From a virus, in the IMG/VR virus record IMGVR_UViG_3300017963_000596, positions 1-30,713 of that record: 30,713 nucleotides of DNA; one strand, given 5' to 3'. Made by a program: the position numbers and the translations under genes. Shown piece by piece: positions 26,326-30,713 of the stretch; position 1 is the first letter of the stretch, and each line of letters begins with the position of its first letter. The notes beneath the pieces were generated by a model. It saw only the letters and a list, made by a program, of their open reading frames with translations, had not been told where the DNA came from and searched no databases.

Positions 26326-28205
26326 TGACATTAGATGCGCATTCAGGGCCGCATTGGGCCGATCCGTGGAATGATATATGGTATGGGCCGTTTTACAATT
26401 ATATAGAGCTGCCGGCGGTGCCGGTGCCGACAATTCTTTTTGAGTTGTCCGGGGCGATGTCTATTAAGTCGGACAGCGGCACAACCTATGACGTGACCGG
26501 CTGGAATACGGACGGGACGTTTGACCTTTCAGGCGGAGGAACGACGAGCTATGCAGACGGGGCGCCGTTTGATTTGGTGAGCGTCGGAACAGACTGGGCG
26601 CCGGATAATAGCTGGCAGCGGCCATATTTAATGCTGCTTAGCGATGGCGTCGGCGGCTATAATGACGCGCAGGTTTTTTTCAACGGAACCTATAGGGGCG
26701 ACGGTATAGAATACACAGCCGACACTGTTGAAATTGGCGACGATTTTACTTTTATAATGCAGGTAAACACCCGAGAACTTAGATCCGGCGTTGATCAAAA
26801 GTATTGGTCGATTGAAAATGGCCGTGATGTCTCGCTCTATATCAATGATCAGGGGAAACTTGGCATAACAAACAAGAATAGTTCAGTAGAAAGCACAACG
26901 CCTGTTTCGCTTGATTATGCTGAGAAGGAGTGGGTGTGGGTTGGCATCCGCAGTATTGGCGGGGTGGCGCAGTTTATAATCGATACGCCGGTTGACGCAA
27001 CATTCCCAATATCTAATTATACGGTCACCGGGGATTTGAATTTAGCGAATAGCGGATCGTATTCAAACAACGGGATGTTTGACCTGGCCCATGCGGCTTA
27101 CTTTGACAGCGGTTTGTCAGCCTATGAAATTACGTTGTATGAAAACGACAATCTAAGATCAACCCCTGAACCGAATATACAAAACATGGTCAGCAATGAT
27201 CAGGTTGGATTTGTCCATTTGTATGATTACACGATTGGGCCGGCGGCCGGGTTCACATGGAGTTTTTCAGACGGCATGGATGTTTCAACAATTTCAGAAT
27301 TGTCGATGCACCCGACAAATAAAAAGATAACCGTCATCGATATCGGCGGCAGCGATACAACAAGTCTACTGGATGTGCGCCAATTTGAAGAGTTGGGGTC
27401 TGTAATCTTCGACAATACGGATATTGAAGAGGTTTTGTTGGGGAATTCCAGCAACATAACCATTGTGAACGGGCAGGCTGCAGATCTTCAATACATAAGC
27501 CCTGAAGGCTTAACGAATTTGGCCGCGTTAAATATTATCGATAATGACGATGTTGGGAGCATCGATGTTTCAAGCAACCTGCTGCTTGAAGAACTCAAGG
27601 TTACAAATGCGGGCTTGTCTTCGCTGGATGTGACGAACAACACGGAGTTGACGATTCTGTACGCGGCCGAAAATACATTTAGCTCTTTAGACGTTACGGA
27701 TTTGACAAAACTGGTTTCATTTTTTGTTAATGCGAATCCGAATTTGACGGCGCTTGACCTATCGCAGAATACAGCCCTTGTCACGGTTAGAGCCCAGGAC
27801 AATCCGCTGGTTACGTCTTTAGATCTTTCTAACAACGCAAATTTGCAAACGCTATGGTGTCATAGGGGGGGGCTTACATCGATTGATACCAGCGGAGCGA
27901 CATCGCTGAAAACGCTTTTAGCTTATGACAACCCGATAGCCACGAACTTTGATTTTAGTAATAACGCTCAAAGGACGTCTATCGATATTGGGGATTGCGG
28001 GTTGTCTCAAGCCGAAGTCGATTCAGTGATAGATGATGTCTGGCAATTGCGGGCGACATCCCCGACCATGACCCGGTTTGATATAGCGGGGAACGCAGCG
28101 CCCAGCGGGGTTTACCAGGCCGCAAGCCCGCCGACGACGGGGAAGGAAAAGTTGTATGATTTGGTTGAAAACTACGGCTATGGGAATGTTTTTTACACGG
28201 CTTAG
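26325..28205 (+). CDS. tail-tip/receptor-binding protein with LamG-like and leucine-rich repeat domains
   Basis: 626 aa. Residues about 90-260 look like a concanavalin/LamG-type beta sandwich: VEIGDDFTFIMQVNTRE, then Trp-Ser-Ile-Glu strands, then KEWVWVGIRSIGGVAQFIID. Residues about 390-590 form eight or so leucine-rich repeats of about 21 residues with LDVTNN, LDLSQN and LDLSNN as the recurring core, of the bacterial surface-protein type. The C-terminus is a short cap. Last large gene of the late operon, so a tail fibre or tip that recognises a host surface ligand is the best guess. LRRs are unusual in phage receptor-binding proteins. Similar LRRs occur in bacterial and plant-associated surface proteins. 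Confidence 0.75.
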   Translation: MTLDAHSGPHWADPWNDIWYGPFYNYIELPAVPVPTILFELSGAMSIKSDSGTTYDVTGWNTDGTFDLSGGGTTSYADGAPFDLVSVGTDWAPDNSWQRPYLMLLSDGVGGYNDAQVFFNGTYRGDGIEYTADTVEIGDDFTFIMQVNTRELRSGVDQKYWSIENGRDVSLYINDQGKLGITNKNSSVESTTPVSLDYAEKEWVWVGIRSIGGVAQFIIDTPVDATFPISNYTVTGDLNLANSGSYSNNGMFDLAHAAYFDSGLSAYEITLYENDNLRSTPEPNIQNMVSNDQVGFVHLYDYTIGPAAGFTWSFSDGMDVSTISELSMHPTNKKITVIDIGGSDTTSLLDVRQFEELGSVIFDNTDIEEVLLGNSSNITIVNGQAADLQYISPEGLTNLAALNIIDNDDVGSIDVSSNLLLEELKVTNAGLSSLDVTNNTELTILYAAENTFSSLDVTDLTKLVSFFVNANPNLTALDLSQNTALVTVRAQDNPLVTSLDLSNNANLQTLWCHRGGLTSIDTSGATSLKTLLAYDNPIATNFDFSNNAQRTSIDIGDCGLSQAEVDSVIDDVWQLRATSPTMTRFDIAGNAAPSGVYQAASPPTTGKEKLYDLVENYGYGNVFYTA

Positions 28206-28396: not shown

Positions 28397-28695
28397 TGGC
28401 GACAAATATTCATGTTAAATCGACGACTGAGATGGGCAGGAATGCAAACGAGATGGGCCGGGCTGGGCGCCGGTTTCTTGAAATGCTTAAGGGCATGGAT
28501 GGCACAAGGCTCGAAGCCATTGCCCAGGGTAATGCGGAAATGGCGGCTATATTTGGTATCGATGATCTTACACAGGCGCAGGATTTCAGCAATCGATGGG
28601 CCGATTTGGTGGCGGAGTTGTTTGATGCTACGGACCCGAATTACGGGAACTATAATCTTTTGCGCGAGTTTATTTATACGATTATGCCGGCTTAG
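28396..28695 (+). CDS. hypothetical helical protein, last gene of the late operon, 99 aa
   Basis: Overlaps the previous stop (TAATG). It is Met/Asn/Gly-rich at the start, then helical with LEAIAQGNAEMAAIFGIDDL and a C-terminal NYNLLREFIYTIM segment. There is no signal or membrane segment. I do not recognise it. It may be a tail-fibre chaperone, as such small genes often follow fibre genes, but sequence alone does not show it. It is the last plus-strand gene, 38 bases from the convergent minus-strand array. Confidence 0.65.
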   Translation: MATNIHVKSTTEMGRNANEMGRAGRRFLEMLKGMDGTRLEAIAQGNAEMAAIFGIDDLTQAQDFSNRWADLVAELFDATDPNYGNYNLLREFIYTIMPA

Positions 28696-28732
28696 GTGTT
28701 GTAGCGCAGGTATTTTTGCCTGCGCTAACGCC
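28695..28732. terminator. hairpin between convergent operons
   Basis: Arms GGTGTT-(GT)-AGCGCAGG and CCTGCGCT-AACGCC pair over 14 bp with a 2-base bulge and a loop TATTTTTG. No long T-tract follows on either side, so it is a weak or bidirectional terminator. GTT comes before AAC here, opposite to the AAC ... GTT order of the attC sites. Confidence 0.5.
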
Positions 28733-28733
28733 A

Positions 28734-28928
28734 TCATAAACAGACTTCCCAACAACCATTTATTAACACAAATGGTATCTCATCCCCGAATTTGAAGCCG
28801 TGCATATCATTACACACAAGATGGTTGTCAATTTTAGCTTTTATATGCAGGCTATCAATAATATTTGTGATAGTCGCCCACGGGCTTTCACCGTTTAAAA
28901 AAACTTTTACATCATCTCCTATTTTCAT
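28734..28928 (-). CDS. small beta-rich protein, last gene of the cassette array, 64 aa
   Basis: Begins MKIGDDVKVFLNGESPW, a short SH3-like beta barrel pattern (Gly-Asp-x-V-x-V-F, then alternating strands). AGGGG lies about 8 bases before the start. It overlaps the end of the previous gene by 17 bases. The gene ends beside the hairpin that faces the late operon. Not recognised; possible small nucleic-acid-binding protein, weakly supported. Confidence 0.6.
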   Translation of the reverse strand: MKIGDDVKVFLNGESPWATITNIIDSLHIKAKIDNHLVCNDMHGFKFGDEIPFVLINGCWEVCL

Positions 28929-29067
28929 TTTGTACCCCTAAAGTAACTTGGTTAGGTGATTGTAGATTGCCGCATGGAACGACAACCACAACACCGTTGA
29001 CATCTACAGCGTGATTTCTTGGTTTACCTTTGCTTATGATAACCACAATTCCCTTTTTGCCGTTCAT
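28912..29067 (-). CDS. small hypothetical protein, 51 aa
   Basis: Start chosen at Met 29067 (begins MNGKKGIVVIISKGKP). A longer frame starts at 29121 but overlaps the preceding gene by 47 bases. No strong Shine-Dalgarno precedes 29067, so coupling to the gene that stops at 29075 is likely. The product is a basic, Val/Ile/Lys-rich beta protein. Not recognised. Confidence 0.5.
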   Translation of the reverse strand: MNGKKGIVVIISKGKPRNHAVDVNGVVVVVPCGNLQSPNQVTLGVQNENRR

Positions 29068-29074
29068 TTGATTG

Positions 29075-29257
29075 TTATACCGATGTTGCCTCTTCAATTT
29101 CTTCTTCGTAGTCATAAGCAAGATTCGAACACAGTTTCAATAATTTCATTCTATAGCGTTGTTCTTCCTTGCTCAAATTATCGTCATCCATCGCATCATA
29201 ACATTCTTTCAATGCCTTGTAGGTGTTTTCAAAACGACAATAGCTCATATTCATCAT
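29075..29257 (-). CDS. phage YCRFENT-type small protein, 60 aa
   Basis: AGGAG lies about 9 bases before the ATG at 29257. The product has the MSYCRFENT opening and an ALKECYDAMDD helix that recur in small phage hypothetical proteins (MSYCRFxNTxxDLxxCxx). The rest is a helical, acidic C-terminus. Role unknown but frequent in phage early regions. Immediately upstream on this strand is attC-like site 29275-29361, whose GTTATAC end abuts this leader, so the gene looks like the first gene of a cassette. Confidence 0.7.
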   Translation of the reverse strand: MMNMSYCRFENTYKALKECYDAMDDDNLSKEEQRYRMKLLKLCSNLAYDYEEEIEEATSV

Positions 29258-29274
29258 GGCTGTTTCTCCTGTAG

Positions 29275-29361
29275 GTATAACGTGTTTATAACCGGCGGCG
29301 AGAATCCGCACCATCTGAAGAACGGGGAGAGTTTCCGTCCGGTTTAGAAACCTGGTTAGCT
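29275..29361 (-). other. attC: attC-like integron recombination site 3
   Basis: Minus strand: R'' AGCTAAC, CAG spacer, L'' GTTTCTAAACCGGACGG, a 36-base terminal structure, L' CCGCCGGTTATAAAC, CAC spacer, R' GTTATAC. L'' and L' pair over 14 bp with one internal mismatch and two extrahelical A residues on L'', the hallmark of attC. The stop codon of the upstream gene (29286) falls inside L', and a ribosome-binding site follows R' directly. This matches cassette structure. Confidence 0.7.
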
Positions 29362-29498
29362 GGCTTTGCTGTGTGTACAATATAAGGATATTCGCCGTTC
29401 ATATAATCTGCCCATGCTTTTGCAATCTCTCTTTTTTGTGGCAACCCGGTTCCTTCAACATTTGTCATTGTGTTGCGCCAATGAGTTACATATTCCAT
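29286..29498 (-). CDS. cassette gene, hypothetical protein, 70 aa
   Basis: AGGAG precedes the ATG at 29498. Residues 1-40 look globular (begins MEYVTHWRNTMTNVEG, contains EIAKAWADYMNGEY). The last 25 residues are encoded by the attC site and are a low-complexity Ser/Arg/Asp tail, as is usual when a cassette gene reads into its attC. Not recognised. Its boundary with the next unit on the right is the repeat at 29518-29587. Confidence 0.65.
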   Translation of the reverse strand: MEYVTHWRNTMTNVEGTGLPQKREIAKAWADYMNGEYPYIVHTAKPANQVSKPDGNSPRSSDGADSRRRL

Positions 29499-29517
29499 GA
29501 CCTCTCCTTTTCAGCTA

Positions 29518-29587
29518 ACGTTTGAATGAGCGGTTATCGTCATAGTTAAGCGGTGCGCAGGCTTCGGCCGCAGTTAAAACAATAATT
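29518..29587 (-). repeat. 70-bp direct repeat, copy 1 (gene 3' end plus flank)
   Basis: About 70 bases recur at 29817-29886, 299 bases away, with only a few changes. The repeat covers the last codons of a zinc-ribbon gene and its downstream flank. On the minus strand this copy ends in GTTAGCT next to a ribosome-binding site, like an R' site, but I could not fold an attC hairpin from it. Confidence 0.7.
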
Positions 29588-29797
29588 AATAGGGCCTGGC
29601 TCTATTATGTCATTGCATGATTCGCACATACCCTGCGCATCCGCTTTGACGGATTGTTCTTTTGCGCCGTCTTCAGAGATGCGGATATCACCATTTCTAA
29701 AATCAACCCATTGCCCGTTGTAGTACAGCCTGACCACATCGTCATTTAATGTCATTGTAGGGCTTTCTATCGGCCTTACGAAGATATCAACGTCCAT
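29546..29797 (-). CDS. zinc-ribbon-tailed protein A, 83 aa
   Basis: The N-terminal 50 residues are a beta-rich domain (starts MDVDIFVRPIESPTM, contains RLYYNGQWVDFRNGD) different from the next gene's. The last 30 residues contain VKADAQ, a Cys-x2-Cys pair (CESC), a short loop, NYCFNCGR and SLRTA, a zinc ribbon shared almost identically with protein B. GGAGG 6 bases before the ATG at 29797 fixes the start; upstream in-frame Met codons lack such a site. Function unknown. The C-terminal tag-like ribbon on different N-terminal domains suggests a shared partner. Confidence 0.7.
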   Translation of the reverse strand: MDVDIFVRPIESPTMTLNDDVVRLYYNGQWVDFRNGDIRISEDGAKEQSVKADAQGMCESCNDIIEPGPINYCFNCGRSLRTA

Positions 29798-29816
29798 TAT
29801 TCCTCCAAGCAAAAGT

Positions 29817-29886
29817 ACGTTTGAATGAGCGGTTATCGTCATAGTTAAGCGGTGCGCAGGCATCGCCCGCAGTTAAAACAATAATT
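29817..29886 (-). repeat. 70-bp direct repeat, copy 2
   Basis: Second copy of the repeat at 29518-29587. It covers the 3' end of protein B and its flank; beyond the shared part the sequences diverge at once (GTAC here versus GTTAG in copy 1). Confidence 0.7.
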
Positions 29887-30084
29887 ACCGCCGAGTGCAT
29901 TCGGGCCAATGTGTTCACAAAAAAGACATGGCCTCTGCGCATCCGCTTTGACGGCTTGTTCTGCTCGTTTCTGCATCTCTATTATTTCAGCCGTTATGTT
30001 TTTTAACGGCCCGAAACAACCGTAATATGAAGCATCAGTTACGGCGCACCATATAGCTTCCTGCCATTCATTTTCAGTTTTCAT
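29845..30084 (-). CDS. zinc-ribbon-tailed protein B, 79 aa
   Basis: The N-terminal half is helical (MKTENEWQEAIWCAVTDASY, then an ITAEIIEMQKRAEQ helix) and unrelated to that of protein A. The C-terminal 30 residues repeat its ribbon: VKADAQ, CLFC, a Gly/Asn loop, NYCFNCGR, CLRTA. AGGAA precedes the ATG at 30084. The shared ribbon plus the 70-bp DNA repeat show that one gene 3' end was copied onto another N-terminal domain. Function unknown. Confidence 0.7.
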   Translation of the reverse strand: MKTENEWQEAIWCAVTDASYYGCFGPLKNITAEIIEMQKRAEQAVKADAQRPCLFCEHIGPNALGGNYCFNCGRCLRTA

Positions 30085-30113
30085 GTTTTCCTGTGTGGAG
30101 CAGAACAGGGCAA

Positions 30114-30176
30114 TGACAACTCACGATTTAGCACTTAAACTCAGCCCTGATAATCCGCTCGACTACCTAGTTATGA
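30114..30176 (-). other. possible degenerate attC-like site
   Basis: Minus strand: TCATAAC (which contains the TAA stop of the gene ending at 30171) at one end and GTTGTCA at the other, 63 bases apart, followed 29 bases later by the next start codon. The arms pair only weakly by eye (about 6 of 9 in the best section). Position at a cassette boundary is right, fold is not convincing. Confidence 0.3.
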
Positions 30177-30449
30177 ACGCTCTAACCTTCTGCCGCCGTT
30201 TATATCTTCAACTATTGTCGCACCATGAACAAATGTTAATGCCTCCGCAATATTATCGCCCTGCTGGGTCGTGACCTGGACAATGCAGCCAAGACCCTCT
30301 ATTTCACATGCTTTTGTTGATTTCATCCAATTTTCTTTTTTTGACGATGCTTTACAAAGCAACCGGAAGAGATCGCCGTCTCCAACAACGTTGACATCTT
30401 TTACGTTTTCTTTTACTTCGGCAATACTTGTGTTGTGTAGTGTCTTCAT
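30171..30449 (-). CDS. cassette gene, hypothetical protein, 92 aa
   Basis: Start fixed by AAAGGAG 6 bases before the ATG at 30449; it begins MKTLHNTSIAEVKENV. It is an alpha/beta protein with a basic helix FRLLCKASSKKENWMK and a C-terminal beta strand VQVTTQQG. Not recognised. Its leader starts 25 bases after the GTTATAC of attC site 2 and its stop lies in a TCATAAC, like a single-gene integron cassette. Confidence 0.7.
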   Translation of the reverse strand: MKTLHNTSIAEVKENVKDVNVVGDGDLFRLLCKASSKKENWMKSTKACEIEGLGCIVQVTTQQGDNIAEALTFVHGATIVEDINGGRRLERS

Positions 30450-30473
30450 CTTATCTCCTTTATAGGTTGTTGT

Positions 30474-30534
30474 GTATAACGTCGTAATCAGCGGCCGGGG
30501 CTTTTTCCGGTCTGCTGGATAAAGCTGGTTGTGT
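30474..30534 (-). other. attC: attC-like integron recombination site 2
   Basis: Minus strand, 61 bases: R'' ACACAAC, CAGCTTTATCCAGCAGACCGG arm, AAAAAG loop, then CCGCTGATTACGAC arm and R' GTTATAC. L'' and L' pair around TTATCCAGC/GCTGATTA with extrahelical bases on L''. Size, conserved AAC ... GTT ends and an A-rich loop match site 1. It closes the short cassette on its right and abuts the leader of the 92-aa gene on its left. Confidence 0.72.
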
Positions 30535-30647
30535 GCCCCCTGGATGCTGGCCACGGTGTGTCTCAATCCGCTGGTGGTGAGACAGTGACCGCAGCCGGGA
30601 TTCGAACCCTACACCCGCCATGCATCTCTGTATTTTACGGGAGGGGC
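30535..30647 (-). other. very short cassette between attC sites 1 and 2
   Basis: A 113-base unit flanked by attC-like sites. It contains a B-box-like segment GGGTTCGAATCCC followed by a few pairs of acceptor-like sequence, but no matching 5' part, so it is at most a tRNA 3' remnant. An open frame (begins MAGVGFESRLRSLSHH) runs on through attC site 2 to 30460, but its composition and overlap with the tRNA-like part argue against a real gene. Confidence 0.45.
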
Positions 30648-30707
30648 ACATAACGGCGCTAATCAGCCGCGCGGCTTTTTGCGTCGGCTGAATTAGCTTG
30701 GTTATCT
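30648..30707 (-). other. attC: attC-like integron recombination site 1
   Basis: Minus strand, 60 bases: R'' AGATAAC, CAA spacer, L'' GCTAATTCAGCCG, terminal loop with AAAAA, L' CGGCTGATTAGC, GCC spacer and R' GTTATGT. L'' and L' pair perfectly over 12 bp with a single extrahelical T, the classic attC asymmetry. The translation KLIQPT ... AARLISAV is the kind of peptide seen where open frames run through attC sites of environmental integrons. Best of the three sites. Confidence 0.8.
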
Positions 30708-30713
30708 GTTTCC

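Follow-up and report, generated by a model that had tools for sequence, protein, structure and literature searches.

An array of attC sites and small genes joined to the late operon of a phage contig

Phage-linked gene-cassette arrays are known but rarely reported. Seventeen phage CALINs have been described, and five of six attC sites from virulent phages proved to be substrates of IntI1 (Qi et al. 2023, PMC9892861). In the same work, the CALINs of the virulent phages TJE1, PH101 and P12002L combine several attC sites with small genes, with no integrase seen; in TJE1 and PH101 all genes and sites run in one direction, and in TJE1 a terminator-like palindrome marks the array boundary. The Vibrio anguillarum prophage Va_90-11-286_p16 is joined to an integron array, its host is known and its excision points are attC repeats (PMC9892861).

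The locus reported here resembles these systems in each of the three CALIN traits and in the joining of a phage to an integron array. TJE1, PH101 and P12002L were isolated and their attC sites tested, whereas the present locus is known from contig fragments and from sequence alone; the likely host phylum also differs, and the array at this locus is not the same in two related phages. Unlike Va_90-11-286_p16, it shows neither host DNA nor an attachment site. A preliminary description of this DNA called the arrangement unusual, which was overstated: phage CALINs had been published in 2023, as had the recombination of phage attC sites by IntI1 (PMC9892861). Since this kind of finding is already in print, the surprise is moderate. 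What the locus adds is the pairing of one position, holding different cassettes in two related phages, with an integron-rich likely host lineage. If the array lies inside the phage genome, cassette traffic between phages and integrons becomes directly testable by comparing near-identical phages from one environment.

Layout of the window and its cassette genes

The window, that is, the whole stretch analysed, is the complete IMG/VR record IMGVR_UViG_3300017963_000596 (30,713 bases). It contains three gene blocks: leftward genes at the left end, a rightward operon at about 3.1-28.7 kb, and small leftward genes that occupy the rest of the contig from 28,734 on. The terminase matches phrog_2 (E 1.7e-27), and the structural region matches the families SU10_portal, LPD38 and Phage_capsid_4. 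The features that concern us are as follows.

3787-28695, plus: phage packaging and structural region (terminase, portal, capsid, LPD38 polyvalent protein, LRR protein)
28700-28727, no strand: terminator-like hairpin GCGCAGG..CCTGCGC separating the convergent late operon and array (fold z -2.75)
28734-28928, minus: last gene on the array strand, 64 aa
28912-29067, minus: small ORF, about 51 aa, no family match
29075-29257, minus: YCRFENT phage-type gene, 60 aa; ribosome-binding site (RBS) CAGGAG after site 3, stop codon TAA in a GTATAAC box
29275-29361, minus: attC site 3, 87 nt; R''/R' AGCTAAC..GTTATAC
29286-29498, minus: cassette gene, 70 aa, no assigned function; stop codon within site 3
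29532-29662, minus: attC site 5, 131 nt; R' core GAT; arms nearly identical to those of site 4, loop different
29546-29797, minus: cassette gene, 83 aa; stop codon within site 5; weak zinc ribbon (Pfam Zn_ribbon_15, E 0.016, below cut-off)
29831-29964, minus: attC site 4, 134 nt; loop codes for the end of the preceding protein; R' core GAT, not GTT
29845-30084, minus: cassette gene with a zinc-ribbon-like tail, CxxC...CFNCGRCLRTA; stop codon within site 4
30171-30449, minus: cassette gene, 92 aa, no assigned function; RBS AAAGGAG directly after site 2
30474-30534, minus: attC site 2, 61 nt; R''/R' ACACAAC..GTTATAC
30648-30707, minus (top strand): attC site 1, 60 nt; R'' GATAAC, R' GTTATGT; two extrahelical bases on the L'' arm

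Much of the preliminary description of this layout is borne out. Sites and small genes share one orientation, all of them lying on the minus strand; three gene stops (29845, 29546 and 29286) fall within attC sites, and RBS-like sequences follow the sites. The array is joined to the late operon across the 38-base gap that had been described, from the late operon stop at 28695 to the next gene at 28734. That no intI is in view is true within the contig, which stops 6 bases beyond site 1. A tyrosine recombinase is absent from both this contig and that of the closest relative phage, IMGVR_UViG_3300018080_000469. Because both contigs end inside the array, an integrase could lie just outside, and the array may be either a CALIN or part of a flanking host integron.

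With three strong and two weaker attC sites within 1.5 kb, the locus exceeds the two nearby sites that a CALIN requires. Several attC sites of one orientation alternate with small genes of the same strand, the site being conserved and the cargo not, as in a gene-cassette array. The cargo does include the phage-type gene that had been pointed out: the YCRFENT gene matches phrog_8760 (E 9.7e-14) and has relatives in 73 phage records. None of 146 genomes from the order that includes Desulfogranum marinum yielded its protein, and the array itself had no BLAST match among phage records. Several array genes have no recognisable attC site behind them, and the 113-base stretch between sites 1 and 2 (30535-30647) holds no convincing gene. 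That stretch includes a tRNA T-arm-like sequence, GTTCGAATC, which is not a tRNA according to ARAGORN.

In both phages, large attC loops (window 29831-29964 and 29532-29662; L004:495-622 in the relative) code for Cys-rich C-terminal tails of cassette proteins (CxxC...CFNCGRxLRTA; CGDC...CCCH). The zinc-ribbon tail in the window gave one weak match among 395 genomes. At the other end of the window, the leftward genes include one for an ArdC-type anti-restriction protein (761-1612; phrog_7245, E 1.2e-13).

The attC sites and their statistical support

Extrahelical bases, a central spacer, a variable terminal structure and the choice of the bottom strand are features of attC sites (Bouvier et al., PMC2727003). 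The end boxes R'' (AAC) and R' (GTT) are present in sites 1-3, while sites 4 and 5 have GAT as the R' core. Site 1 has its extrahelical bases, T and A, on the minus-strand 5' (L'') arm, which is the canonical orientation. Its free energy is also well below that of shuffled sequences (z -4.35); the values for site 2 (-0.28) and site 3 (-0.92) are not significant.

We scored the window with two covariance models, whose E-values are rough owing to a short calibration. Model R1 was built from 18 canonical chromosomal attC sites at loci beside integron integrases, with the window excluded, and the covariation of its structure on these host sites is 0.526, against 0.183 when shuffled (0/500 shuffles). 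R1 gives site 1 34.8 bits (E 2.8e-7) on the minus strand and 14.4 bits on the plus strand, gives site 2 13.5 bits (E 0.33), and does not report site 3 in the window search. Model R2 was built from 37 chromosomal Desulfobacterota attC sites. Its training set includes sites that were retrieved for their likeness to sites 1 and 2 and is thus partly circular; as independent evidence, R2 counts only for sites 3, 4 and 5. It gives 52.9 bits for site 1, 40.1 for site 2 (E 2.4e-7), 26.8 for site 3 (E 3.9e-4), 21.1 for site 4 (E 0.009 over the whole window) and 18.2 for site 5 (E 0.046). These five best matches in 30.7 kb all lie on the minus strand and within the interval of the preliminary description, and R2 matches nowhere else in the 30.7 kb with E <1.

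In a separate fixed-register scan of the whole minus strand, the three sites of the preliminary description occupy ranks 1-3 (27.5, 24.7 and 22.7; next 19.8), with P of 0/2000, 0.0025 and 0.0175 against dinucleotide shuffles of the array, site 3 having the 0.0025. The attC layout proposed for these three sites thus stands at 30648-30707, 30474-30534 and 29275-29361, with support from R2 and the register scan and, for site 1, from R1 as well, and the failure of a covariance model to match them, named beforehand as a refuting outcome, did not occur. Their number had been understated, as R2 adds the overlooked sites 4 and 5. A plus-strand sequence at 27283-27398 that scored in the fixed-register scan is a false positive reported by neither covariance model. 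Rfam contains no family matching the attC sites.

Sites 4 and 5 need to be read together. The region holds direct repeats of 28 nt and 71 nt (D1 and D2), because these contain both arms of the two near-identical sites; being mutual copies, sites 4 and 5 are not counted as independent hits. Given the GAT R' core, site 4 is probably impaired, and both sites may be inactive. At gene boundaries in the window (29513-29539, minus) and in the relative (L004:915-942) lie short attC-like stubs that have R'' and R' but lack the hairpin. They score 10.6 and 11.7 bits, which is chance level, and are possibly attC sites that have lost the hairpin.

Chromosomal relatives of site 1 and a related phage

Site 1 belongs to an attC family of Desulfobacterota chromosomes. 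Its DNA has matches in 61 of 395 Desulfobacterota genomes, with the same structure and register. The better matches are 83-98% identical; in the best, identity is about 90% or higher across 52-64 bases, and over the full length of site 1 the identity to chromosomal sites reaches 91-93%. The matches span the L''-loop-L' core, the R'' and R' flanks being variable; the family is too conserved for a pair count to reveal covariation. Among ten site 1-like loci examined, R1 places an attC match at that position in all ten and finds further attC matches in six. Site 2 has weaker chromosomal matches (81-86% identity, E down to 6e-8). Apart from these sites, array DNA is shared with Desulfobacterota genomes over no more than a few tens of bases at a time. 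Gene cassettes are expected to show just this combination, in which the recombination site is conserved and the cargo is unrelated. Unlike the Desulfobacterota chromosomal integrons, the array has no integrase or attI in view and shares none of their cargo. A strict pattern of the site 1 core was found in no other viral contig, and the family is therefore otherwise known from chromosomes.

The genomes also point to likely hosts. Relatives of the window terminase (75-76%), located through a conserved terminase stretch, occur in Desulfosarcina and Desulfogranum; pattern searches with an LPD38 alignment and a whole-terminase alignment returned only relatives already known. Integron integrases were sought in seven genomes with such terminase relatives and in the order of Desulfogranum marinum, the likely host order, where 80 of 146 genomes have one above the curated cut-off; this order is an integron-rich lineage. 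Loci beside these integrases supplied the attC sites of R1. Several assembled contigs in it break soon after the integron integrase.

The closest relative phage, IMGVR_UViG_3300018080_000469 (loci L002, L004 and L005), has a late operon collinear with that of the window; DNA identity is about 67-76% along most of it. Its contig likewise ends in an array, at the end of the late operon and on the opposite strand, with a phrog_3472 gene at the array end. The attC sites of this array are as follows.

L004:76-127: attC site, R2 37.9 bits
L004:256-355: attC site, R2 30.2 bits
L004:495-622: attC site, R2 33.4 bits

The cassette genes of L004 differ from those of the window, so that array content is entirely different at the same locus, and the two junction sequences show no blastn similarity. 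Conservation of the same gene order in related phages, which had been named as a refuting outcome, did not occur: the closest relative carries other cassettes at the same place. In 797 kb of related loci R1 has two matches with E<1, both within the L004 array. On 43 whole related virus records it matches in the closest one alone, most of the others being fragments or more distant.

Origin of the array

The right-end array is genuine and of Desulfobacterota type. Together, these results suggest that it is part of the phage genome, where it converges with the late operon and serves as a locus for accessory genes; we put the probability of this reading at about 0.7. The GAT core of sites 4 and 5, the weaker site 3, the lack of the strict site 1 core in other viral contigs and the R1 matches in just the closest of 43 related virus records count against it, and in the window and L004 alike the late operon flanks the array on one side, the contig ending in the array on the other. 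Late genes adjoining attR would look identical, and one could therefore suppose that the window is the end of a prophage integrated beside or in a host chromosomal integron, with the related contig a similar prophage from another host. The chromosomal nature of the site 1 family, the absence of its strict core from other viral contigs and the ending of both contigs in the array fit such an origin, and attC-flanked prophages are known in Vibrio anguillarum (PMC9892861). However, neither contig has a tyrosine recombinase, the window has no obvious host gene, the two junctions lack blastn similarity, and in both contigs genes of phage families on the array strand adjoin the late operon. We consider a prophage end unlikely. 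A chimeric assembly, joining a phage contig to one from a bacterial integron, would fit the metagenomic origin and a contig that stops 6 bases past a repeated site, but the second contig shows the same architecture with a different sequence, which makes a chimera highly improbable.

A further possibility, compatible with a phage-borne array, is that attC sites were captured once and that the array is now a degenerate, immobile remnant, ordinary phage DNA kept for its genes. The two sites with a GAT core, the stem-deleted stubs at chance-level scores and the genes with no recognisable attC site behind them are in keeping with decay, whereas the canonical site 1, so close to chromosomal sites over its full length, and the wholly different content in two related phages are not. 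Such decay seems rather doubtful to us, though less so than a prophage end.

For a phage-borne array, we propose the following model. During infection, the bottom strand of an attC site, when single-stranded, would fold, and a host integron integrase could recombine the folded site with another attC or with attI. Cassettes would be gained, lost or swapped in this way, and the phage would sample small accessory genes, phage-type ones included. These viruses of sulfate-reducer-type bacteria probably carry exchangeable gene cassettes. It is tempting to speculate, as a tentative extension, that a clade of Desulfobacterota phages maintains a locus reserved for cassettes, opposite the late operon's end and refreshed through host integron integrases, with phage-type genes serving as cassettes.

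Relatives of the window terminase were also seen at two loci (L011 and L019) in short elements with a tyrosine-integrase-like gene, amid apparent host genes and without an array. These elements are possibly satellites or prophage remnants.
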